From a virus, in the IMG/VR virus record IMGVR_UViG_3300012351_000027, positions 1 through 24,844 of that record: a stretch of 24,844 bases of DNA, one strand, 5' to 3'. Positions 5,097 to 22,439 of this stretch are shown piece by piece. Under the pieces are notes generated by a model. The model worked only from the letters and a program-made list of their open reading frames with translations, made no database searches and was not told the DNA's origin. Position numbers and translations under genes: made by a program. How positions within the stretch are numbered: the stretch's first letter is position 1; every line of letters begins with the position of its first letter.

Positions 5097-6546
5097 ATAT
5101 AGATCACTTGAGCATACTATCATAGGCACAATGCTTTCTGAAAAGTTTCCTGATAAGAAAAAGAAAACAAGTTCAGTAAAGGATGCCCCACAAGATGACA
5201 ACAAAGATCCAGCGCAAGAAGATCAAGGAAGCGCGCAGCCTAAAAAAGATGCTGGCCCTCCTCAACCCAACGGCCAACAGCAACCCATTGTTAAAGCCCC
5301 TCCTGTTAAAAAGGTAAAGGATCCTCAAGGTGAGAAGATGGATGCAGGTGATGAACCTGTTAAGCTTGGTCAAGGTAATGCTATTGATTTGAAGCCAGAA
5401 CTTGAAACACCTGATCAGCGAGATAAGCCTGTACAGGAAGGTCGTATTCCTTCAGGACAATGGACGTGTAAAGGTTGCGGGGCTTCTCAAATTAGAAAAG
5501 AAAAACATGTTTCTCATGAGTCATGTAGTAAATGTGGATATTATGCTATTCAACCTGAAAAGAAAACTGGCAAACATATTAAAAAACCTGTTAAAGAAGG
5601 CATTAACATTTCTAAATGGTGGATCAAGAGTAATCCAGTTAGGAATGTTGATAAATCTCAAGAACAACATCTTGAAACAATGAAAAAACATGCTCGTATT
5701 GCTAAGGGGTATGATGATCAAGCTAACAATCCCCCAATGGGATTAAAGCCTGCACAGCACAGGATGCATGTAGATAGCAACAAAAGAATGGCTGATATGC
5801 ACCACCGTCAAGCTGGAAGTTCTCTAGGATGGTACCTTAAGAATGATTCTAGTAAAGAAGGTGCAATGAAGGCCTACAAGGCTCTTCGAGAAGATTGTGA
5901 AATGTCTGAAGAATGTATTGATGAATTATATGGTAAAGGATCACTTCCAAAAATTCAAAAGAGTTTAGAAAAACGAGCTGATAAAGTTTGGGATAGGCAT
6001 CATAAAAGTGGTTATGCTGAAAGGGGATCAGCTAATGGGCCTATTGCTGATACAGCTAGAAGCATTGATAATAGAGCAACCGATGCACGATTACTTCAAA
6101 AGAAAGTTAAGAAAGAGGAAACCGATATGACTGCACTTCAAAATGTAAAAACCATCCTTGAAGCTCGTCACCGTGCAGGTGGTGGAGCTAAGGGCGTCGG
6201 CCGTACTGTAAAAGATGGTTATGGAAAAACCATGCAGGTCAATTCTAAGGGTCAAGATACTGAAGGTGATGATCATATCATCAACCAACTTCGTAAAGCA
6301 TCTAACCTCAGGGATCACAGCATCACCTTCAAGAATAAAGAAAAGGCCCATGTTCCATCTCACCATGCAAAGAAAGCACTTGAGATCTACAGTGGCTTGA
6401 AAACTTCACAAGAAAAGTCCCATATGGCTAGCCGTATGCACTCTTCTCACAGTGCTTTCAAAGATGCACTAACAGGTAAAGTAGCACCACCAGCAGGAAA
6501 GAAGAAGATTACTCTTCCAACCACACCTTTCGACTGGCGTAAGTAA
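5089..6546 (+). CDS. Large basic protein with a CxxC-CxxC zinc ribbon, probably virion- or DNA-associated
   Basis: 485 aa from ATG 5089, with AAGAGGA eight bases upstream and an overlap with the preceding stop. Residues ~22-120 are Pro/Lys/Gln/Asp-rich and look disordered. A zinc-ribbon-like knuckle follows: C127-x2-C130 ... C146-x2-C149. The middle has a His- and Met-rich helical stretch, then MSEECIDELYGKGSLPKIQ, a motif seen in phage structural proteins that reminds one of the DELNTSTL motif at 636. The C-terminal ~125 residues are basic, rich in Gly, His and Lys, ending in LPTTPFDWRK. It may bind nucleic acid. No catalytic family is recognised. Confidence 0.7.
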   Translation: MVKYRSLEHTIIGTMLSEKFPDKKKKTSSVKDAPQDDNKDPAQEDQGSAQPKKDAGPPQPNGQQQPIVKAPPVKKVKDPQGEKMDAGDEPVKLGQGNAIDLKPELETPDQRDKPVQEGRIPSGQWTCKGCGASQIRKEKHVSHESCSKCGYYAIQPEKKTGKHIKKPVKEGINISKWWIKSNPVRNVDKSQEQHLETMKKHARIAKGYDDQANNPPMGLKPAQHRMHVDSNKRMADMHHRQAGSSLGWYLKNDSSKEGAMKAYKALREDCEMSEECIDELYGKGSLPKIQKSLEKRADKVWDRHHKSGYAERGSANGPIADTARSIDNRATDARLLQKKVKKEETDMTALQNVKTILEARHRAGGGAKGVGRTVKDGYGKTMQVNSKGQDTEGDDHIINQLRKASNLRDHSITFKNKEKAHVPSHHAKKALEIYSGLKTSQEKSHMASRMHSSHSAFKDALTGKVAPPAGKKKITLPTTPFDWRK

Positions 6547-6560
6547 GCACTAGAAATCTA

Positions 6561-6567
6561 ATAAATA
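6561..6567 (+). promoter_or_regulatory. Candidate T4-type late promoter (ATAAATA)
   Basis: ATAAATA ends 21 nt before ATG 6589, which itself has a strong AAGGGAG ribosome site. Strong spacing and a virion-type gene downstream support a late promoter. Confidence 0.7.
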
Positions 6568-6588
6568 AAAAATAAGGGAGAAATTACT

Positions 6589-7455
6589 ATGCCATTGTGG
6601 AAAAATACTGTAGACTCTGCTAATTCTGCTAAATTTGCCATTGTTCAAGAGCAAAAAGCATCAGGAAAAGCTAATATTGCTGCTAATAACCTTTCGATGT
6701 TTAACAACACTTCGATGGGTGTTATCAGGGGCAATCAAATTGTTGGTCAGTTTGGAGCACAAGCTTCGACTAAAGCTAATACCTCAGGTGAGGGTCGAAA
6801 AATTAATCATGCTGGTTGGCAGCTTCGAACTCAAGGAATGGGTCCGGTAACAGGTTTTACCGTTAACGCTGCTGCAGCATCATCCGGATTTGTCACAGGT
6901 GAGACTGGTGTGATATCCGGTGGTGCTCCAGGTGGTAATGGTGTTTTTGTTGCAACTGCTAACGCAACAGGTAACCTTGCCTCTGTTTCAATTGCTCGTG
7001 GTGGTGTATTTGCCAACGCAGGTCAGGTAGTTGTAGCATTCAATCGTGAAAAGTATCTCGCTTCTATTACAGTAGGTGGTACTCCAACAGGTTACAGCAA
7101 CACCGATTTGATCACTGGTACAGCCGTAAACAATTTCGTTTCAGCAACTGCTAACGTGAACACAAACTCTACAGGTGGATTCGTTTCTGCAAACGTTACT
7201 GTTATTAACAAGGGATTGTTTGGTAATGGTTCTGTTGCAGCTAACATTACCTTTACTGTAGCTAACAGCACCGGTGGAGCAACAGCTGGTTCAGGTGCTA
7301 CATTTACTGCAGTCCTTGCTAATAGCGCTGGTGGATCAATCCTTACTCCAACACTAGGTGGTCGTGCAGGTCGTGTTCATTATGAAACACTTGTCTCCAT
7401 GAGATCACTTAAGCCAGGAGCAGGTTCGAATACTGTACAGCTTCCTATCACCTAA
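6589..7455 (+). CDS. Gly/Ala/Asn/Thr-rich virion structural protein
   Basis: 288 aa. The first ~85 residues include GEGRKINHAGWQLRTQGMG, and the last ~35 include GGRAGRVHYETLVSMRSL. In small virion proteins of other T4-like phages these two blocks lie nearly next to each other (family recollection). Here ~180 residues rich in Gly, Thr, Asn, Ala and Val separate them, with repeated short units such as TANVNTN, TVANSTGG and TGGATAGSG, which suggests beta-structured, fibre-like or decoration domains. No Cys. A strong ribosome site and a late promoter word are consistent with an abundant late product. The exact location in the virion is not known. Confidence 0.75.
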   Translation: MPLWKNTVDSANSAKFAIVQEQKASGKANIAANNLSMFNNTSMGVIRGNQIVGQFGAQASTKANTSGEGRKINHAGWQLRTQGMGPVTGFTVNAAAASSGFVTGETGVISGGAPGGNGVFVATANATGNLASVSIARGGVFANAGQVVVAFNREKYLASITVGGTPTGYSNTDLITGTAVNNFVSATANVNTNSTGGFVSANVTVINKGLFGNGSVAANITFTVANSTGGATAGSGATFTAVLANSAGGSILTPTLGGRAGRVHYETLVSMRSLKPGAGSNTVQLPIT

Positions 7456-7473
7456 TTTTGAGGTATTTTTATT

Positions 7474-7746
7474 ATGGCAGATCAAGGCGTCCGTGTTCTA
7501 GACTTAGTTTTAAAAGCTAATACAGCACTAACAGATCAGGTTGTGATGGTATGGAACGCAGGTTCCAATACCGCCCAAACTGTTTTGGTAAGTGTTGCTT
7601 CAGTTACAATAGTTCCCCTTATTACAGATCCAGCTAATAGTAATGCTCTTGTATGTGCACAAGGGCAGGAATTTCGGTCGAATTCTTTCTTCTATGTAGC
7701 TACAGCAAATAATCATGTTAAAAGGGTGGCGCTAGCAGACTTCTAA
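7474..7746 (+). CDS. Small beta-rich protein, probably structural
   Basis: 90 aa, with GAGG upstream of the ATG. Composition (Val, Ala, Asn, Thr, few charged residues) resembles the preceding virion protein, and both lie in one presumed late transcript 18 bases apart. One Cys (VCAQGQEF). No signal peptide or membrane segment. A small head-decoration or tail-associated protein is likely, but no family is recognised. Confidence 0.65.
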   Translation: MADQGVRVLDLVLKANTALTDQVVMVWNAGSNTAQTVLVSVASVTIVPLITDPANSNALVCAQGQEFRSNSFFYVATANNHVKRVALADF

Positions 7747-7759
7747 AGCGAAAGATATT

Positions 7760-8146
7760 ATGCAAATTTTGACTACTAAGAATTTTCTTATTTATGCTGC
7801 CCAACACTACGAGAACCCCACATGTCAATCGACTGAGGAGTTTCAGGAGGATCTTAGAAGAATAAAGTATATCAAGAAACTCATTACTAAATATATAGAA
7901 AGTGGTGAGTTAAAAGAGCGTTTGATTCTAAATCATTTGATTGTTTTGAGTAATGTATATAAACCCATTCCACTCTGTAGAATTTTGTTTCTAAAGATGG
8001 AAGAATATATGAAGTTTACTAAACCGTTCCTTATGTTTATTGGGGTATGGCAAGAGCGATTATATAATATTAAAAAGGAAGGAATTATCGATACAAGTTT
8101 GATACCCATGGATCAGCTTATCATCGAAAAATTAAGGAATGTATGA
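7760..8146 (+). CDS. Conserved T4-like phage protein of unknown function
   Basis: 128 aa, helical and basic. The patterns NFLIYAAQHYENP, STEEFQEDLRRIKYIKKL and GELKERLILNHLIVLSNV recall a conserved family of ~100-130 aa proteins found near structural genes in marine and alphaproteobacterial T4-like phages (memory, not searched). No catalytic motif, membrane segment or signal peptide was seen. The stop overlaps the next start codon. Function unknown. Confidence 0.75.
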   Translation: MQILTTKNFLIYAAQHYENPTCQSTEEFQEDLRRIKYIKKLITKYIESGELKERLILNHLIVLSNVYKPIPLCRILFLKMEEYMKFTKPFLMFIGVWQERLYNIKKEGIIDTSLIPMDQLIIEKLRNV

Positions 8147-8346
8147 TGGTTAAGTCATCTATCACAAATCAAAAACTTGTAGAAGATGCCCCAACCAATT
8201 CTATGGGAGCGTCCTCCTCTGGTACAGGAACTAGTGGAATTAATACATTTGATCCTTTATTGAAAACGAGCAAAAAGAAACCCCGTGTTTTAAAAAGGTT
8301 CAAGGACTTTAAATCAAATGATAAACGACTTCGAAGCACCAACTAA
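8143..8346 (+). CDS. Small hypothetical protein, low complexity with a basic C-terminus
   Basis: 67 aa. TAAGGA lies five bases before ATG 8143; ATG 8146 is an alternative. The N-terminal half is Ser/Thr/Gly-rich (APTNSMGASSSGTGTSG), and the C-terminal half is strongly basic (KKKPRVLKRFKDFK). The PTNSMG word recurs in small phage virion-region proteins (recollection). It overlaps both neighbours. Function unknown. Confidence 0.6.
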   Translation: MMVKSSITNQKLVEDAPTNSMGASSSGTGTSGINTFDPLLKTSKKKPRVLKRFKDFKSNDKRLRSTN

Positions 8347-8725
8347 AGAATTATTAGCAAGGGTTGATGAGCGTACTAAAGCAATTCAAACAGACATTGC
8401 TAAGTTTAGAGATGATTTAAAAAATTCTTTTTATTCTTTGTCAGATAAAATTCGTGATACAGAAACCCGTGCTGTTGCTAAGTATGATGATAATAAAAAA
8501 GATATTGAAGAAATTAAGCGAATGCTTGACAAAGATTATACAAAGAAAAATGAATTTGATCCTATTAAGAAAATTGTTTATGGATTTGTGGGATTTCTTT
8601 TATTATCAATTGGTGGTATGTTCATAGCAGTTATAGCTAGGCCACAACAATTTCCAACTGAAAAAGCACTTAGTGCAACTGCACCACCTAATGTACCTCC
8701 TTCAATGCTAGAAGGCAAGAAATAA
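8318..8725 (+). CDS. Coiled-coil protein with one C-terminal membrane segment (XhlA/holin-accessory-like)
   Basis: 135 aa. Residues ~8-80 are charged and helical with heptad character. A hydrophobic segment follows at ~86-110 (IVYGFVGFLLLSIGGMFIAVIA), then a Pro-rich tail. This coiled coil plus TM layout resembles XhlA-type membrane proteins linked to phage lysis, but there is no signature motif. The start overlaps the preceding gene by 29 bases in another frame, and the stop overlaps the next start (TAATG). It is the first of three envelope-directed genes. Confidence 0.65.
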   Translation: MINDFEAPTKELLARVDERTKAIQTDIAKFRDDLKNSFYSLSDKIRDTETRAVAKYDDNKKDIEEIKRMLDKDYTKKNEFDPIKKIVYGFVGFLLLSIGGMFIAVIARPQQFPTEKALSATAPPNVPPSMLEGKK

Positions 8726-9504
8726 TGCAATGGTTTTTTAAAAAAATAATACCTATTGTACTTCTAACACCATTTTATTTGATTTTAGGTGTTTTTATTT
8801 ACTTTGCTATTTTATCAGAATTTCCTCCTGTAGAAGCTAAAGTTATTGATTGGCAACCTAAAACACTTGCAGCAGGTGATGAAATTAAAGTAACATACGA
8901 TGTTAAGCATTATCGAGATTGTGCATATCATACAATTAGAAAAATGATAAAAATAGAACCAAATAATGTTAAGGGAAATATAATAACCATTGGGTATGTA
9001 GAAAGATATATTAAAGCTGGGGAACAAGAGGGGCCTCAGGAAGTAGTATTTTCTATTCCTTTAATTATTAATGATGGCGTTTATGATCTCTACGCTGAAA
9101 TTCAGCCAGTATGTAATTTTTATGATTATATCATAAACAAAACTTTACCCATCATACCACTCAGAGTTACTATTAACAATATGCCTGCTGAAGTTGTGAG
9201 TATGACGATCTCTAAAGATAAATTAAAAGTTGGTGAAGATCTTAATATTGAAAATACTGTGAATAAAAAGCGAGCATGTAACGCTACCATTGACACTTTC
9301 GTTACTTTGCGCGATAATACGATAGTGACTAAATTCTCACGACCTGGTGCCGTTGGTTCTTTGGGCATTCATACAACCAAAGAAATATTGGATCCAGGTG
9401 TCCCCCCAGGAGAATATCTTCTAAAGAGAACCCTCTCTTATGATTGTCCTTTAAGGGCTTATCAAATATCATATGAAGATATAAAATTCGAGGTACTTCA
9501 CTAA
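8725..9504 (+). CDS. Membrane-anchored protein with two tandem Ig-like extracytoplasmic domains
   Basis: 259 aa. An N-terminal TM anchor (~8-30, basic KK on the cytoplasmic side) is followed by two similar ~110-residue beta domains. Domain 1 (~35-150) has C66 and C130; domain 2 (~155-258) has C185 and C241. Each domain begins with a V.....PK.L..GD/E pattern and ends with a Cys-containing strand after a G-V/E-Y-x-L turn, suggesting one disulfide per domain. No enzyme motif. A single N-terminal TM plus a large periplasmic domain recalls the topology of T4 holin T, but no sequence kinship was seen. It is coupled to 8318-8725 by TAATG. Confidence 0.7.
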   Translation: MQWFFKKIIPIVLLTPFYLILGVFIYFAILSEFPPVEAKVIDWQPKTLAAGDEIKVTYDVKHYRDCAYHTIRKMIKIEPNNVKGNIITIGYVERYIKAGEQEGPQEVVFSIPLIINDGVYDLYAEIQPVCNFYDYIINKTLPIIPLRVTINNMPAEVVSMTISKDKLKVGEDLNIENTVNKKRACNATIDTFVTLRDNTIVTKFSRPGAVGSLGIHTTKEILDPGVPPGEYLLKRTLSYDCPLRAYQISYEDIKFEVLH

Positions 9505-9505
9505 A

Positions 9506-9760
9506 ATGTTTCATTATTATATTGTAGTCCTGATCTTTGGTCGGGTAGCGGCTGTTACTGGCCCCATAGACGACCATACAACTTGTAAGGTTCAAGCAGA
9601 AACTAGATATGAACAAATTGTAACAACAGCTAAGGCTAAAGGTGTCAGTTCTATTATTGTTGAAGGAAAAACAGCTACACAAAAAGATCTTAGTGTAATT
9701 TGTAAAGGTGGTACCAATTCTCCTAAAATAACTATTGATATTACAAATATTTCCCAATGA
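9506..9760 (+). CDS. Small putative exported protein
   Basis: 84 aa. A hydrophobic N-terminus (~4-17, YYIVVLIFGRVAAVTG) could be a signal or anchor sequence, followed by a mixed alpha/beta domain with two Cys (~C27 and ~C66). GAGG lies about 12 bases upstream. It follows the Ig-like protein by one base and ends this transcript. A periplasmic partner of that protein is a reasonable inference. No family is recognised. Confidence 0.55.
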   Translation: MFHYYIVVLIFGRVAAVTGPIDDHTTCKVQAETRYEQIVTTAKAKGVSSIIVEGKTATQKDLSVICKGGTNSPKITIDITNISQ

Positions 9761-9767
9761 TCACGAA

Positions 9768-9786
9768 TTGTTACAGTCTGTAACAA
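9768..9786. repeat. Perfect inverted repeat TTGTTACA-GTC-TGTAACAA
   Basis: An eight-base perfect dyad with a three-base centre, eight bases after a stop codon and 36 bases upstream of the -35 box at 9823. No T-run follows, so it is a poor terminator. It could be an operator or an mRNA 3' end hairpin. GTTAC words recur downstream at 9930, 9948 (as GGTAAC) and 9965. Confidence 0.5.
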
Positions 9787-9822
9787 AACCTATATATTAA
9801 ACATCAAACCATGTAATTTATC

Positions 9823-9852
9823 TTGACAGCTGGTGGAAAATAATTGTATAAT
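9823..9852 (+). promoter_or_regulatory. Sigma70-type promoter (TTGACA-N18-TATAAT)
   Basis: Both hexamers match consensus exactly with an 18-base spacer. It faces the primase gene and would start an RNA near 9858-9862, giving a ~150-base leader. It is probably an early promoter used by host RNA polymerase. Confidence 0.85.
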
Positions 9853-9861
9853 AGCGGTACG

Positions 9862-9956
9862 CTGGCGGGCGTTAGCCGCCACGCGCTAGCTTCGAAGAAA
9901 CGTAGTTTCGAAGAACCAGCGCGTTGTTTGTTACCCTTGGGAACATAGGTAACAAA
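9862..9956 (+). ncRNA. Candidate structured leader or small RNA, three stacked hairpins
   Basis: Three local hairpins follow the promoter. (1) GGCGG ... CCGCC at about 9864-9880. (2) A long one at about 9882-9924: CGCGCT pairs with AGCGCG, and inside it CTTCGAA pairs with TTCGAAG. (3) TTTGTTACC (9927-9935) pairs perfectly with GGTAACAAA (9948-9956). The segment is markedly GC-richer than its neighbours and has no convincing ORF. No clear T-run terminator follows, so it may be the 5' leader of the primase mRNA rather than a free RNA. It is not a tRNA: no acceptor or T-arm pattern fits. The rest of the 251-base gap to 10011 shows nothing else. Confidence 0.5.
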
Positions 9957-16005: not shown

Positions 16006-16012
16006 TATTTAT
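16006..16012 (-). promoter_or_regulatory. Candidate T4-type late promoter for the endolysin (ATAAATA, minus strand)
   Basis: TATTTAT on the plus strand reads ATAAATA on the minus strand, 30 nt upstream of the endolysin ATG. This distance matches the plus-strand copies, and a lysis gene is an expected late target. Confidence 0.7.
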
Positions 16013-16016
16013 GCGC

Positions 16017-16043
16017 TTGACAATGGCGCCGAAAACGTATAAT
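16017..16043 (+). promoter_or_regulatory. Sigma70-type promoter (TTGACA-N15-TATAAT)
   Basis: Both hexamers match consensus, but the spacer is two bases short. It drives the rightward gene block that begins at 16077 and is back to back with the leftward late promoter at 16006-16012. It also rules out the in-frame ATGs at 16011 and 16023 as starts of that block. Confidence 0.7.
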
Positions 16044-16076: not shown

Positions 16077-16550
16077 ATGGTACTTCATGATTTAGATGGT
16101 GGTGTTTGGGATGGTGATGAAAATTATATAAGTAATTACCTTCGTGGTAAAGCACTTTATCTAGCAGGACCAATCGATCATTGCACTTATGATGAAATTC
16201 ATGGGTGGCGTGAAAGAGCTAAAGCTCTTTGGCCTGGTAAATGTTTTGATCCTTCGGCTCGAGTATTTGATCATGTTACTGGCCCCGCCAATATGAAACA
16301 ATTGGTGGAAGAGGATAAGGTAGAAATTTCTTCTTCAGATGCTCTTCTTGTTCATTATATTGAGCCAAAAGCTGGTTCTCGTATGACAGGTACCACCATG
16401 GAAATTCCTTATGGTTTCGAAAAAGGAAAGTTTGTGGTTGTTGTGACAGATGTTGAATTTCTTTCCCCATGGGTAAGGTATCATTGTCATTATGTCGTTT
16501 CTTCAGTTGAAGAAGGTATTCAAATCATCAAGGACTTTTTTGATAAATGA
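16077..16550 (+). CDS. Nucleoside 2-deoxyribosyltransferase-like protein
   Basis: 157 aa from ATG 16077, chosen because GAGGA lies just before it and upstream in-frame ATGs overlap the promoter. Seen: ALYLAGPIDH (~27-35), the family glycine loop; a W.ERAKALWP helix; FDPS; SSSDALLVHY (D88); and SRMTGTTMEIPYGF with E109 where the family has its catalytic Glu. Known members transfer deoxyribose between bases or hydrolyse nucleoside 5'-monophosphates. Phage forms may recycle nucleotides, and the fold is also related to TIR-like nucleotide-cleaving proteins. It overlaps the next gene (ATGA). Confidence 0.8.
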   Translation: MVLHDLDGGVWDGDENYISNYLRGKALYLAGPIDHCTYDEIHGWRERAKALWPGKCFDPSARVFDHVTGPANMKQLVEEDKVEISSSDALLVHYIEPKAGSRMTGTTMEIPYGFEKGKFVVVVTDVEFLSPWVRYHCHYVVSSVEEGIQIIKDFFDK

Positions 16551-16747
16551 GAGAACTTATTGAGTTTGCAATTGGAGGAATGATCGTAATGATCTTCCTC
16601 GGTATTGCATATACTATAACACATAGTGCAGCACTTGCATATATTTCCTATGTATTAATAGCTATAATGTTGGCAGATGTTGCTTATATTGTAGGAAAAT
16701 TTATAGTTTCAGTACTAAGAACTTCTATTGGACAAAATAAAGAATGA
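16547..16747 (+). CDS. Small two-TM membrane protein
   Basis: 66 aa, overlapping both neighbours by ATGA. There are two hydrophobic segments, ~5-25 (IEFAIGGMIVMIFLGIAYTI) and ~29-55 (ALAYISYVLIAIMLADVAYI), then a short polar tail. No family is recognised. Coupling to the hydrolase downstream suggests joint action at the membrane. Confidence 0.6.
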   Translation: MRELIEFAIGGMIVMIFLGIAYTITHSAALAYISYVLIAIMLADVAYIVGKFIVSVLRTSIGQNKE

Positions 16748-17328
16748 AATATCTACTTATTCATGGATTGGGGGCTTCGAAGTTATCTTTTAAGTCCTTA
16801 ATAAAACAGCTACCTTTTACACCAGAAGTCCTTGAATATGAGCCTTATGATACCTTCTCTGATGTTATCAGTAGGGGTATCGATATGTGTAAAGAACATC
16901 CTAGAATAATAGTTATAGGTCATTCTTTAGGTGGTCTCATTGCTTGGCATTTAGCTAATTCACACCCAAGGATTGTAGGTGGTGTATCGATATCAACACC
17001 TTTTGGGGGATTTGGATTAGCTTCTATTAAACTTCCTTTGTTTTTATTGCCTACCATCATTCCAAATATGTTAATGGAACTTGATAGAAATAGTTGGGTG
17101 TGTCGAGAACCTAGAACTATAGAACTTGATATACCTTGGAAAAATGTTGTTGCTACAAAAGGACTAATCACTGGTTATCAAAATGATGGAGTGTTGACAA
17201 CAAAATCTCAAGATGAATTAAAAGGTGGAAAGAATGTTTCCACTTACGTATTACCATATAATCACTTTGAGATCCCTCATTGTGATGAACTTTATCGAAT
17301 AATCTCAACACTTAATAACGGAGACTAA
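16744..17328 (+). CDS. Alpha/beta hydrolase, lipase/esterase-like
   Basis: 194 aa. The oxyanion loop HGLG (7-10) lies at the N-terminus, the nucleophile elbow is GHSLGG (S61), and D148 (YQNDGV) and H174 (YNHFEIPH) complete a plausible triad. The fold and short length match triacylglycerol lipase or palmitoyl-thioesterase-like enzymes. It has no signal peptide, so it acts in the cytoplasm or on the inner leaflet. It sits between a two-TM protein and an SPFH membrane protein, so a lipid or acyl substrate is the natural inference. Substrate unknown. Confidence 0.85.
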   Translation: MKYLLIHGLGASKLSFKSLIKQLPFTPEVLEYEPYDTFSDVISRGIDMCKEHPRIIVIGHSLGGLIAWHLANSHPRIVGGVSISTPFGGFGLASIKLPLFLLPTIIPNMLMELDRNSWVCREPRTIELDIPWKNVVATKGLITGYQNDGVLTTKSQDELKGGKNVSTYVLPYNHFEIPHCDELYRIISTLNNGD

Positions 17329-17334
17329 TATAAT

Positions 17335-18639
17335 ATGTTTGGACGTATCTTTGCTACAATTGCTCTCTTTGTGGGGAGTGGTATTATTTCAAAACTTGTG
17401 ACTCCGTGGACATCACTTGCCCTAGGGCAAGCAGCAGGAAATCAATTTGCAGCTAGTAATGCTGCTTATATAAGCACCATGTATACCTTTGGTGCTATTA
17501 ATTTGTTTTATGTCGTGGGCGGGATAATATTTTTACTACTTCTAGTTCTTATTTGGTGGAAGCCTCTTAAAGATTTGATGATAAAAATCAATGGAGAATT
17601 GGGTGTATTGCTCTTTGCTCTTGCACTTTCATTATCTTTCATTCCAACTAATGCTAAGGCTTATTATGATAAGCAAGATTGGCCAGAAGTATACCCAATC
17701 CTTCCTAATTGGTCAGCATTTTGGATTCCAAATGTAGGTGATAATAAGACTGATCAGAAACAAATGGATAGTGCTGAATATTTGAATGCGAATAAGGTTC
17801 CTTTGAAGTTTTTTCAAGTACCACATACAAAGCTTCCAGGATCGTCATATTTTTCTGATTATTATATTCCTGCAGGTCGTTTAATCTTGGTTGATCGTAC
17901 AACCTTTACTCATGAGTGGGTAGATAGTACTGATCGTGGAGATAATGCTAAGAAGGAAGGTTTTCCTTGTCAGTCCAAAGAAGGCCTTGATATAGCCGCA
18001 GGTGTTTCAGTTGGCGCCAAGGTAGAAGAAGCTGATGCTGCAAAATTTCTTTACAACTTCGGTGTTGTAACTGATGAAAAGAGTAGTAGGATTGAGGTTC
18101 AAGGTGGTGATTCTCAACATCTTTCAGATCCTAACGTGACATTCAGGGCTCTTTATTACGGGCGTACATTGAAGTCTGTTATGTCTGACGTAGGGCGTAA
18201 GAAGATTCAAACTCTTGTTTGCAATGAAATTGGTTCTCGTACCTTTGATCAAGCAAATGCTGATTATGTAAAGATTATGGATACTATTAGTCAAAAGGCT
18301 ACTGAGTACTTTCATAATGTAGGTATTACAATTAGTTTCATTGGTTGGGCTGATACATTCACTTATGATAGGGAAATTCAGGTAGCTGTCAATCGTGGTT
18401 ACGTTGCAGGTATCGAAGAACAGAATGCGAAACGTCTTGCACCATATGCTGGTACTATTCAAGCACTTGCAGCGGCCGATGCACTTCGTAATTTCGGTCA
18501 GAAGTCTGATGGTAAGTTCCCAACTACAGTCGTTGGTTCAGTACCTGATGTAAATGCTTTGTTTGGTTCTTTCCTTGTAGCACCTAAAGTATTGAGTATT
18601 CCAACACCCGCAACAACTTCAACAGGAGATAAACACTAA
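17335..18639 (+). CDS. SPFH/band-7 (stomatin/prohibitin-like) membrane protein
   Basis: 434 aa; GGAG lies about 12 bases upstream. The N-terminus has hydrophobic segments at ~5-20, ~52-75 (INLFYVVGGIIFLLLLVLIW) and ~88-109. The SPFH-like region follows: YYIPAGRLILVDRTTF, GLDIAAGVSVGAKV, then DVGRKKIQTLVCNEIGSRTF, TISQKATEYFHNVGITISFI and TYDREIQVAVNRGYVAGIEEQ. These are the features of band-7 proteins, which form large ring or cage assemblies in membranes and recruit proteases or shape lipid domains. The extra TM segments and the Gly/Ala-rich C-terminus are unlike plain stomatins. Few phages carry one. A membrane partner gene overlaps its stop. Confidence 0.85.
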   Translation: MFGRIFATIALFVGSGIISKLVTPWTSLALGQAAGNQFAASNAAYISTMYTFGAINLFYVVGGIIFLLLLVLIWWKPLKDLMIKINGELGVLLFALALSLSFIPTNAKAYYDKQDWPEVYPILPNWSAFWIPNVGDNKTDQKQMDSAEYLNANKVPLKFFQVPHTKLPGSSYFSDYYIPAGRLILVDRTTFTHEWVDSTDRGDNAKKEGFPCQSKEGLDIAAGVSVGAKVEEADAAKFLYNFGVVTDEKSSRIEVQGGDSQHLSDPNVTFRALYYGRTLKSVMSDVGRKKIQTLVCNEIGSRTFDQANADYVKIMDTISQKATEYFHNVGITISFIGWADTFTYDREIQVAVNRGYVAGIEEQNAKRLAPYAGTIQALAAADALRNFGQKSDGKFPTTVVGSVPDVNALFGSFLVAPKVLSIPTPATTSTGDKH

Positions 18640-19181
18640 TGTTATTATTCGAAAGCGCACTTTTATTCTGGGGCTTAGTAGCAGCCTTCTTCATTGCAAC
18701 AGAGATTTCTGTTTCATGGAAAAGCCACTTAGGATTTCTTTGGTTAGGAATTCTTTTAGCAGCTTTAACTCTCTTCTCAACATTCAACCCATTTGTGTGG
18801 ATGTGGGCTAATCCTTGGACAGTAGTATTTGCTGCTGTGATTTGGGTAATAGTAGGTATTACCTGGGCATTTGCTAAATGGTATTTCTATCTTAAGGATG
18901 CAAAAGATAAAATTTCTACCGATAAGATGAAAGAGCTTAGAGGATTATACGCTGATCCTGCAAAGACAGCACAATTTCCAACATTCCTTGATTATCTTCA
19001 GGATCGTGGATATGCTCCAACTGCTTATAAAGAAGTAGATCTTATCAGTGTCTGGGGTGCATGGTGGCCTTTCTCGATGTTTGAGTCTGCATTCAATGAT
19101 ATCATTCGTCGCGGTTGGAATGCTCTTGTTAGACGTTATATCAAGACCTTTGATGCCATCACAGCGAGTGTATTCAAGTGA
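18639..19181 (+). CDS. Multi-TM membrane protein, probable partner of the SPFH protein
   Basis: 180 aa, coupled by TAATG to the SPFH gene. Three hydrophobic segments: ~3-24, ~30-50 and ~57-85, rich in Trp and Phe. A soluble C-terminal part follows (YLKDAKDKISTDKMKELRG ... FPTFLDYLQDRGYAPTAY) with a Trp-rich VWGAWWPFSMFESAF stretch. Bacterial SPFH proteins are often paired with NfeD-type membrane partners; the position is analogous but the NfeD OB domain is not visible. No family is recognised. Confidence 0.7.
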   Translation: MLLFESALLFWGLVAAFFIATEISVSWKSHLGFLWLGILLAALTLFSTFNPFVWMWANPWTVVFAAVIWVIVGITWAFAKWYFYLKDAKDKISTDKMKELRGLYADPAKTAQFPTFLDYLQDRGYAPTAYKEVDLISVWGAWWPFSMFESAFNDIIRRGWNALVRRYIKTFDAITASVFK

Positions 19182-19405
19182 AAGGAGATTGTATCTCTGA
19201 GGATTTTATTCCTCTTGTTAAACCCAACCCAATAAACCCTTTTGATGAATTAATTCGCCGAATTGGCAATAATGTTGAAATGTATGATCGAAAGGTAACT
19301 GAAGCTTGGCATGCCTTAGAACAAGCTAAAGTAGTTCTTCACGAAGCTCGAAATATACAATCTAATATTGAGAGCTGGGTTAAAGATTTTAGGCCTAAAG
19401 CCTAA
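19178..19405 (+). CDS. Small coiled-coil protein, end of the SPFH operon
   Basis: 75 aa from a GTG overlapping the preceding stop (GTGA). A soluble helical segment covers ~24-66 (DELIRRIGNNVEMYDRKVTEAW then EQAKVVLHEARN), probably a coiled coil. AAGGAG lies inside the first codons, so the start is not certain. No family is recognised. Last gene before the structured gap at 19406-19540. Confidence 0.55.
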   Translation: MKGDCISEDFIPLVKPNPINPFDELIRRIGNNVEMYDRKVTEAWHALEQAKVVLHEARNIQSNIESWVKDFRPKA

Positions 19406-20529: not shown

Positions 20530-21197
20530 CCCTTACTGTTGTTATGACTGATATTCATGGCTGTTACAATCAACTACTAGAACTTATGGATCAAGTTCAC
20601 ACTTGGAATGATGATCCTAAGAAGTTTATCTTCCTTGGTGATTATGTCGACCGCGGTCCTGATTCTGCTAAGGTCATTCAATATATGATTGATCATCCTG
20701 AATTTACTTGCCTTAAAGGAAATCATGAAGACATGATGCTCCAGGGTGGAAATTTATGGTGGAATAATGGTGGTGGTGAAACATACGATTCTTATAAAGG
20801 TGTCCCAAAAGGAAAAGTTGAAGAGCATCTGGAATGGATTCGTGCACTTCCTCTTTATTATGAAGATGAACATAGGATCTATGTTCATGCAGGACTTCAT
20901 CCTGGTGTTGCTCTAGAAGATCAATCAGAGAATTCTATGCTCTGGATCCGTGAAGAATTTCTTCTTAGCAAACATGATTTTGGAAAGCTTGTTATTCATG
21001 GCCATACACCCCGCCGTCAAGTGGATATTCAATTTAATCGTATTAACCTCGATACTGCTGGGGTCTTTGGAAATAAATTCACAGCGGCTTTCTTTAAAGA
21101 CGATTCCAGGGATTTGTACAAGTATGTCCAAGTTGCAGGTTATGTGAAGCCTGATGAACCTGAAATTCCTCTAATTAAGGGCCTTGTTGAGCAATAA
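20526..21197 (+). CDS. PPP-family serine/threonine protein phosphatase
   Basis: 223 aa from TTG 20526, which has AAGGGGAAG upstream; ATG 20544 would cut into the metal motif region. All motifs of the lambda-phosphatase type are present: TDIHG (D9, H11), GDYVDRG, GNHED, YVHAGLHPG and IHGHTP. These bind two metal ions and remove phosphate from Ser/Thr (sometimes Tyr or His). The length equals lambda NinI-type enzymes (~220 aa). Phage copies may reverse host signalling. The start overlaps the basic peptide and the stop overlaps the MetAP start. Confidence 0.92.
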   Translation: MTLTVVMTDIHGCYNQLLELMDQVHTWNDDPKKFIFLGDYVDRGPDSAKVIQYMIDHPEFTCLKGNHEDMMLQGGNLWWNNGGGETYDSYKGVPKGKVEEHLEWIRALPLYYEDEHRIYVHAGLHPGVALEDQSENSMLWIREEFLLSKHDFGKLVIHGHTPRRQVDIQFNRINLDTAGVFGNKFTAAFFKDDSRDLYKYVQVAGYVKPDEPEIPLIKGLVEQ

Positions 21198-21952
21198 TGA
21201 AATATTCTATTCCTGACTTTCAGCAGCTAAATCATGTTGGGGTGCTTACAGCAAAGTGCCTCTCAGAAATTGAGACAATGATTAAGCCAGGTATCACTAC
21301 TTGAAATATTAATGAAGCAGTAGGTTATTATGCTCTTAGTAATAATCTTATTTGTGCTACAAATGGATATAGAGGTTTTCCTGCTAACTGCTGTACATCA
21401 GTTAACCATGTAGCTTGTCACGGAATTCCTTCAAGGAATAAAGTACTTAAAGAGGGTGATATCATTAGCGTAGATGTCACTTTCATTAATAAATCAGGTA
21501 TGCACGGTGATTCTTGTTCTACATTTTTTGTAGGAGAATGTTCAAAAAAGGCTAAAATTGTTCATGATGCAGCTTTTCAAGCTCTTTGGGTTGGTATTGA
21601 AGCAGCTAAGCCTGGTAATCGTATAGGCCATATTGGTTATGCTATTCAAAAACACATTGAAACAAATACTCCTTGTTCTATTGTTCGACATTATGTTGGG
21701 CACGGAACTGGTAAAAAGTTCCATGAACCACCTGATGTACCTCATTGGTGTAGAGAATCTAATATTGAGAAAACTCCTCTATTAGAACCTGGTATGGTCT
21801 TTACTATTGAACCTATTATTAATTTTGGAGACGACGGTCTTAAGACCCTTAACGATGGATGGACGACTGTAACTAGAGATCGTTCCCTTTCCGCTCAATT
21901 TGAACATACAATAGGTATCAGAGAAGAGGGAGTAGAGGTATTTACACAATGA
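21197..21952 (+). pseudogene. map: Methionine aminopeptidase type I with an in-frame TGA at codon 36
   Basis: Reading from ATG 21197 (TAATG overlap with the phosphatase) gives a complete 251-codon type I MetAP frame broken only by TGA at 21302-21304 in PGITT-stop-NINEAV. Family members commonly have Gly there (as in PGVSTGELD), so GGA to TGA would explain it. Otherwise intact: HVACHGIP, metal ligands in VDVTF and MHGDSC, HGTGKKFHEPP, FTIEPIINF and QFEHTI. It would remove the initiator Met from new proteins. Without readthrough only 35 residues or a fragment from ~21500 could be made. Sequencing error, recent mutation or programmed readthrough are all possible. Confidence 0.85.
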
Positions 21953-22155
21953 GAGAAAATGAAGCGCTAAAAAAGCTTAAGTCTTTAACACTTCACCTAA
22001 GTAAAATCAAAAAGAAATGTCAAACCAACGGTCTTTGGTTATCGGCAGGGTTTGACGGGCTTAAAGATCCCACAGATGAAGCTCAGCAAGGGCCAATGAT
22101 AACAAAGCTATTCCGACAATTAGAAGAAGCAAAAGAATATTTGAAAGGAAAATAA
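21949..22155 (+). CDS. Small hypothetical helical protein
   Basis: 68 aa, overlapping the MetAP stop (ATGA) and the GroES start (TAATG). Charged, Lys-rich and helical (EALKKLKSLTLHLSKIKKK; LFRQLEEAKEYLKGK), one Cys, no TM. No family is recognised. Confidence 0.6.
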   Translation: MRENEALKKLKSLTLHLSKIKKKCQTNGLWLSAGFDGLKDPTDEAQQGPMITKLFRQLEEAKEYLKGK

Positions 22156-22439
22156 TGTTTATACCTAGTGGCGATAAGATGATTATAGATATTTTGGATT
22201 CCTCTATTACTGCAGGTGGAATCATGCTTTCTGAGACTAATGGTGGTACCAAGATGGCTGTTGTTAAGGCAATTGGTCCTGGTCGTTGGGAGCATGGTAC
22301 TCAAATTCCTACTACCGTTAAGGTAGGGGATTCTGTTATTTTTCAACCACAATATGCAGCAAAGCTTCTTGTTAAAGGAAGATTTTATGATATGTTAGAA
22401 GAAAAGAACATCATTGGACATTTTGAAGCCGAGGCTTGA
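22155..22439 (+). CDS. groES: GroES-like co-chaperonin (Cpn10)
   Basis: 94 aa, the normal Cpn10 length. IPSGDKMIIDI at the start, a flexible loop SSITAGGIMLSETNGG (~16-31) matching the GroEL-binding mobile loop, AVVKAIGPGRW, and VKVGDSVIFQPQYAAKLLVKG with the final MLEEKNIIG all fit GroES. T4 uses gp31 for the same job, to fold its capsid protein with host GroEL; here a bacterial-type GroES is used. No GroEL is present in the window. Confidence 0.92.
   Translation: MFIPSGDKMIIDILDSSITAGGIMLSETNGGTKMAVVKAIGPGRWEHGTQIPTTVKVGDSVIFQPQYAAKLLVKGRFYDMLEEKNIIGHFEAEA

Follow-up and report, generated by a model that had tools for sequence, protein, structure and literature searches.

A probable two-part SPFH membrane module, fused at a signal-like joint, in a phage operon and in bacteria

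HflK and HflC have periplasmic SPFH domains and modulate FtsH (PMC12048511). SPFH/band 7 proteins were listed in 2006 for the T4-like phages 44RR, Aeh1 and RB43 (PMC1524935), and one is listed for phage PhiSH19 (PMC3220722), in each case without a function; on the function of phage SPFH proteins, we found annotations only in the literature. By tblastn, SPFH proteins of the phrog_200 type matched 661 phage records. Here we analysed 24,844 nucleotides of viral DNA (IMG/VR record IMGVR_UViG_3300012351_000027, positions 1 to 24,844; the window), in which a six-gene operon at 16077-19405 includes an SPFH gene. An earlier note on this DNA had suggested that the six genes make up one membrane-localised system and had known of no described phage module with this set. 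Within the scope of our searches the latter held for the six-gene set, but not for phage SPFH proteins, which have been listed since 2006. What appears to be new is the family to which the SPFH gene belongs, with its split and fused forms, its partner with two transmembrane (TM) segments and the joint between the two parts; phage SPFH genes as such were already known. No description of the family, the partner or the joint was found in the open-access literature, which is weak evidence.

The SPFH gene product contains three N-terminal hydrophobic segments, unremarked in the earlier note. The gene and its parts are the following.

17335..18639, + strand: fused two-TM-SPFH protein, 434 amino acids (Band_7; AlphaFold2 and Foldseek); close homologues in L008 and L066-L081
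17335..17592, + strand: N-terminal two-TM part; codon of Gln37, in the interhelix loop, at 17443-17445
17584..17661, + strand: internal signal-sequence-like segment, ending in AKA (17653-17661) before YYD
17677..18414, + strand: SPFH/band 7 domain, predicted to be on the periplasmic side from positive-inside counts

The SPFH assignment made in the earlier note was borne out. The protein scored 24.3 bits against Pfam Band_7, just over the cut-off of 23.6, and its AlphaFold2 model (mean predicted local distance difference test score 75.6, core mostly 85-97) showed the SPFH fold with a long helix after it, a feature of the SPFH/Band 7 superfamily. The top Foldseek matches were prohibitin and stomatin (E-value 1e-8), with HflK/C at 2.5e-6. 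Neither the window protein nor that of the cellular locus L067 matched the NCBIfam hflK and hflC models, and the L126 protein reached hflK with an E-value of 0.053 (12.9 bits, cut-off 159.4). No NCBIfam model names the two-TM-SPFH family, and phrog_200 matched the window protein at only 4.6e-6. There is one Lys or Arg residue before TM1, none in the TM1-TM2 loop and three in the TM2-TM3 loop. Because of these counts (positive-inside) and the signal-like joint, the Gln loop and the SPFH domain are predicted to lie on the periplasmic side.

The first ~85 residues of the gene product correspond to a two-TM protein in which one Gln is near-invariant. Distant phages (phage G gp65; L026-L047) have the SPFH part as a plain lipoprotein of ~300-360 amino acids, and an adjoining gene encodes a protein of ~75-110 amino acids with hydrophobic segments, in which Gln is the single invariant residue. 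Among non-fused loci, this two-TM gene adjoined the SPFH gene in all 17 viral ones with a lipoprotein signal (13 times upstream and 4 times downstream, for 16 distinct proteins) and in 15 of 17 cellular ones from several bacterial phyla; as a rough background, 11% of the other large genes of phage loci had a small TM neighbour. Employing hhalign, we aligned the fused N-terminal part with the separate protein at a probability of 97.2% and a score of 57.7; 100 local column shuffles scored at most 24.2, and reversed profiles and an unrelated small two-TM family at most 16.2. The Gln was kept in 55 of ~57 fused sequences, a count that excludes three further rows called fused only through a spurious upstream start. 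These results support homology of the fused and separate forms, and the gene is very probably a two-part module that is fused in the window phage. The two-TM proteins showed no match to Pfam, T4 Imm, exclusion families or NfeD.

Fused proteins from alphaproteobacteria and related phages have A-x-A at the end of the third hydrophobic segment, before Tyr or Phe (PTNAKA-YYD in the window). Every sequence of this set that was read had Ala at -1, with Ala, Ser, Thr or Gly at -3; this evidence is a sequence listing, and the pattern used for motif counts itself presupposes Ala at -1. Fused proteins of Verrucomicrobiota, Patescibacteria and one member of Planctomycetota carry a lipobox with Cys at the matching place. 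The L025 protein, which is without the two-TM part, begins with an ordinary signal peptide, and this too ends at the A-x-A. Their position and residues mark the joints of the fused forms as predicted internal signal peptides, at which signal peptidase probably cuts the precursor to release a two-TM protein and an SPFH protein in the periplasm. Bradyrhizobium FbcH (cytochrome b/c1) is an example of a polyprotein that is cut at an internal signal peptide. If the prediction is true, an internal signal peptide joining two membrane proteins, one with a lipobox, would be an unusual means of obtaining equal amounts of two partners.

Scanning one genome per species, we found 71 cellular loci. The nearest cellular homologues of the window protein came from Acetobacteraceae/Rhodospirillales (at most 57% identity over the best segment). 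In a phylogenetic tree, the window and the phage contig L008 grouped together with a support of 98 in the Shimodaira-Hasegawa-like approximate likelihood ratio test (SH-aLRT), inside a clade of 26 rows (18 cellular and 8 viral; SH-aLRT 98), and well-supported branches forced at least nine changes between viruses and cells. Some 'cellular' copies may be prophage, as the neighbouring genes suggest for the Polynucleobacter locus L088, and the sequence of the Bradyrhizobium locus L083 is identical to that of the viral record L016; the direction and number of transfers are therefore only approximate. Our best guess from the sequences is that the window gene is a phage copy of a bacterial module, derived from a host. 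Six Acetobacteraceae genomes (L066, L067, L068, L071, L073 and L076) have hflC and degP ahead of the gene, and in L067 hflK was read upstream (hflK-hflC-degP). In Nitrospirillum, an extra band 7 gene lies directly downstream. The locus that sits beside the window and L008 in the tree (L075, 5992-7323, from the 'LaPlata' metagenome-assembled genome) has among its neighbours a YceG/MltG-like gene and a tRNA methyltransferase gene.

The remaining features of the operon are given below.

16017..16043, + strand: sigma-70-like promoter TTGACA-N15-TATAAT, both hexamers exact
16077..16550, + strand: nucleoside 2-deoxyribosyltransferase (NDT)-like protein, 157 amino acids (weak Pfam match, phrog_19940, tblastn)
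16547..16747, + strand: 66-amino-acid protein with two hydrophobic segments, no family; 4-nt overlaps with its neighbours
16744..17328, + strand: alpha/beta hydrolase (Abhydrolase_6), triad S61-D148-H174
18639..19181, + strand: multi-TM protein with a WWPFSM motif, 180 amino acids; homologues in Rhizobium phages and L062-L065
19178..19405, + strand: 75-amino-acid protein, last gene of the run, 4-nt overlap; the sequence is compatible with a coiled coil

The six genes are coupled on one strand, as the earlier note had stated, with successive gaps of -4, -4, +6, -1 and -4 nt. The SPFH frame has 434 codons, whereas shuffling the region 200 times gave no stop-free frame longer than 152 codons, and G+C content by codon position ranks 1 > 2 > 3 in all six frames. 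The proposed promoter has both exact hexamers upstream of the operon, but its spacer of 15 nt is short relative to the usual 16-18 nt; an alternative in-frame ATG of the NDT-like gene at 16011 would overlap it. Four exact TTGACA/TATAAT pairs are present in the window, all on the + strand (at 9823, 10954, 16017 and 19940), versus 0.07 expected in shuffles, and likely mark sigma-70 promoters through the region. No Rfam family or tRNA was found, and a DNA-level search against phages gave no match. A second IMG/VR contig (L001) is identical across 10,204 bases bar two positions and is not independent evidence. At 21304 in the window, a G-to-A change relative to L001 turns a Trp codon into a stop and splits a methionine aminopeptidase-like open reading frame (~21197-21952); the change is either genuine or an artefact of sequencing. 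A GroES-like gene was read at 22155-22439.

The assignment of the hydrolase with its full triad was also borne out: the protein scored 36 bits against Abhydrolase_6 (cut-off 26.3), and S61, D148 and H174 are kept in the L008 homologue (44-45% identity). A signal peptide was not apparent. No homologue was found in named phages, and in IMG/VR only L008 carries one besides L001. The NDT-like protein stayed under the cut-off of Pfam Nuc_deoxyrib_tr (E-value 7e-4, 20.1 bits against 28.8), but matched phrog_19940 (6e-12) and, by tblastn, an Edwardsiella phage ZHS gene annotated as a nucleoside 2-deoxyribosyltransferase (9e-10); a distant kinship with these enzymes is likely. The 66-amino-acid protein has two hydrophobic segments, and neither it nor the 75-amino-acid protein has a convincing Pfam or PHROG family. 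For the multi-TM protein, the AlphaFold2 model is all-helical and of low confidence. Identity with NfeD was considered and dropped, there being no Pfam match and a model too weak for use. Homologues of the multi-TM protein lie inside a Rhizobium phage ter gene cluster and also in L062-L065, and none of those examined adjoins an SPFH gene. In Rhizobium phage RHph_TM30 (L005, 6219-10477), the WWPFSM protein comes after a tellurite resistance protein, a VWA protein, a membrane protein and TerD.

The idea of a six-gene module largely gave way when relatives were compared: the earlier note had named genes carried separately, without a conserved order, as its refutation, and for the most part this is what the relatives show. 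The hydrolase gene was present in 1 of 27 records with SPFH relatives (L008), directly upstream of the SPFH gene; this is the sole order retained, and the hydrolase is the only other operon gene with a recurring SPFH link, in that one relative. The multi-TM gene, called a partner of SPFH in the earlier note, was in none of the 27, whereas its profile recovered the relatives in L062-L064 as a positive control. One of these, a 208-kb phage contig, carries the multi-TM gene and has no detected SPFH gene, and the protein was rejected as a fixed SPFH partner. Among 14 phage records searched, the NDT gene appeared only in L011 besides L001, at a distance of more than 5 kb from SPFH; the 75-amino-acid gene had no relative except in L001. 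Apart from L001, more than two of the six genes occurred together in no other record examined. Because the hydrolase, multi-TM, NDT and 75-amino-acid genes rarely or never accompany SPFH in relatives, we read the operon as a local assembly around the SPFH gene, the other genes being local additions. The earlier note was right in placing a membrane-scaffold gene inside a phage operon; its finding was real but misdivided, and the object of interest is the two-TM-SPFH gene rather than the set of six.

We propose that the first part of the module is a two-TM inner-membrane protein, whose periplasmic loop would bear the near-invariant Gln, and that the second part is an SPFH domain at the periplasmic side of the membrane, which in many relatives with neighbouring genes is a lipoprotein. 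In the window phage, its close relatives and many bacteria, the two would be made as a single precursor, joined by an internal signal sequence, and cleavage by signal peptidase I (signal peptidase II in other lineages) would yield the same pair of products. On the membrane, the SPFH part may then build an HflK/C-like ring or cage, held by the two-TM part; the ring is suggested by relatives only. During infection, the assembly would join or compete with host FtsH-HflK/C, or stabilise the inner membrane, and thereby alter membrane-protein quality control. We give this whole explanation, from two-part module through cut precursor to altered quality control, a probability of about 0.45. Modulation of quality control is the best-supported guess at function because of the SPFH fold, the predicted membrane side and the hflKC-degP link; FtsH/HflKC as the specific target is a tentative reading, less likely than not. 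Put in its widest form, namely that a widespread undescribed system of a two-TM Gln protein and a periplasmic SPFH protein, synthesised in several phyla as a polyprotein that signal peptidase I or II cuts, has been repeatedly acquired by phages to re-tune FtsH/HflKC-type quality control, the proposal falls somewhat short of an even chance. Phage SPFH genes, common and long noticed without a known function, now gain a defined partner and a predicted membrane side, and with a bacterial counterpart beside hflK-hflC-degP in one clade their role becomes a testable question.

Several observations weigh against this explanation. Much of the sequence pattern would also fit a third TM helix that is not cleaved. 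No two-TM gene was found adjacent to the L025 SPFH gene, whose product has a plain signal peptide, or near L113 and L119. The tree comprised 95 sequences in a quick search with SH-aLRT support only. The six hflC-degP loci represent one event, because all are in one clade. Most cellular neighbours are unrelated, none is universal, and three sigma-54 activators were among the 50 neighbours scanned.

If the third hydrophobic segment stays in place, the product is one three-TM protein with a periplasmic SPFH domain, and A-x-A is merely a turn. The AlphaFold2 model has a helix at 88-101 followed by a break, and anchored SPFH proteins of the HflK/C type retain their TM helix. However, the -1 Ala and the small -3 residue are kept while the helix diverges; a lipobox Cys takes the same place in the fused forms of other phyla, split relatives carry ordinary lipoprotein signals there, and the plain signal peptide of L025 ends at the same A-x-A. 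A retained anchor is unlikely on this evidence. Rather than quality control, the module might serve superinfection exclusion or membrane sealing, with the SPFH assembly and the two-TM protein blocking the DNA of a second phage or repairing the injection site. Small two-TM proteins with such a role exist (T4 Imm), phage SPFH genes are spread over many unrelated phages, and in PhiSH19 a gene close to SPFH bears the name superinfection exclusion. That name rests on annotation only, and as a partner the PhiSH19 gene was rejected: an unannotated two-TM open reading frame (~69 codons, L059) intervenes directly upstream of the SPFH lipoprotein gene. The two-TM proteins match no Imm or exclusion family, and chromosomal bacterial copies need no such role, so that we regard this function as improbable.

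A role in lysis timing, in which the module would hold or release a holin, spanin or endolysin at the envelope, appears more improbable still. Its appeal comes from neighbours: a GH25 endolysin gene adjoins the operon divergently, spanin-like genes adjoin SPFH in L025 and, by sequence reading only, in L011, the SPFH gene of Staphylococcus phage 812 lies between endolysin and transglycosylase genes, and rIIA-rIIB are directly downstream in L026. Yet a scan of 147 neighbours of phage SPFH genes revealed no general neighbour and did not support association with lysis clusters as a general rule. The commonest known families were ribonucleotide reductase and sigma factor; RIIB was the sole lysis family in the top 25, with two members, at least one of which is the RIIA of L026. 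The bacterial copies examined were not with lysis genes. That all six genes form one functional system, an NDT-like enzyme, a hydrolase and a scaffold acting in lipid remodelling or counter-defence, draws on the tight overlaps and on the hydrolase-SPFH order retained in L008, but is already largely refuted by the finding of at most two of the six genes in the other records examined, apart from L001. PADLOC defence-system models likewise matched nothing beyond chance level (best 0.015, the multi-TM protein). We consider such a system very improbable. Among superinfection exclusion, lysis timing and counter-defence, all raised in the earlier note, the evidence favours none over the others.

Two large phage contigs carry the split module in runs of consecutive genes: two-TM gene, SPFH lipoprotein gene, rIIA and rIIB in L026 (169 kb; 5774-9929), and two-TM gene, SPFH lipoprotein gene, groES and groEL in L031 (193 kb; 5645-8872). 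As single cases, groES-groEL after the module fits the quality-control theme, whereas rIIA-rIIB points elsewhere. SPFH genes of the phrog_200 type had a small TM gene upstream in 13 of 28 clusters, versus the 11% background. The small genes include a second two-TM family, mostly with P-x-L-x-S and with no detectable homology to the Gln type, upstream of phrog_200 SPFH lipoprotein genes (L138, L162, L166, L185, L189, L211, L214, KB57, Gekk3-15 and Lak-B6). In Pseudomonas phage BroderSalsa (L050, 5478-10231), the SPFH lipoprotein gene is closely followed by genes with the annotations amidoligase, ligase-like and glutamine amidotransferase.

Compared with known systems, the window protein resembles HflK/HflC in its predicted periplasmic SPFH domain, the long helix after the domain and the hflC-degP proximity in one Acetobacteraceae clade. 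Unlike them, with one N-terminal TM helix each, it has a two-TM part and an internal signal sequence and does not match NCBIfam hflK, and its split relatives are lipoproteins. The phrog_200 lipoproteins (Klebsiella phage KB57_117, BroderSalsa, phiCbK, phage 812 gp71) are likewise phage SPFH proteins, often encoded after a small TM gene, but their small TM proteins are mostly of the P-x-L-x-S type and without detectable homology to the Gln-type part of the window protein. SPFH-NfeD pairs, such as E. coli QmcA-YbbJ, also place a membrane protein gene next to an SPFH gene, whereas both the two-TM part and the 180-amino-acid multi-TM protein of the window are without an NfeD match. Bradyrhizobium FbcH similarly consists of two membrane proteins joined via an internal signal sequence, although the proteins are unrelated. 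Bacillus phage G gp64-gp65, a two-TM protein and an SPFH lipoprotein with 31.5% identity, differ from the window in being two genes, in having a lipobox instead of A-x-A and in the hydrolase homologue not being in the record; they represent the split form of the window gene.

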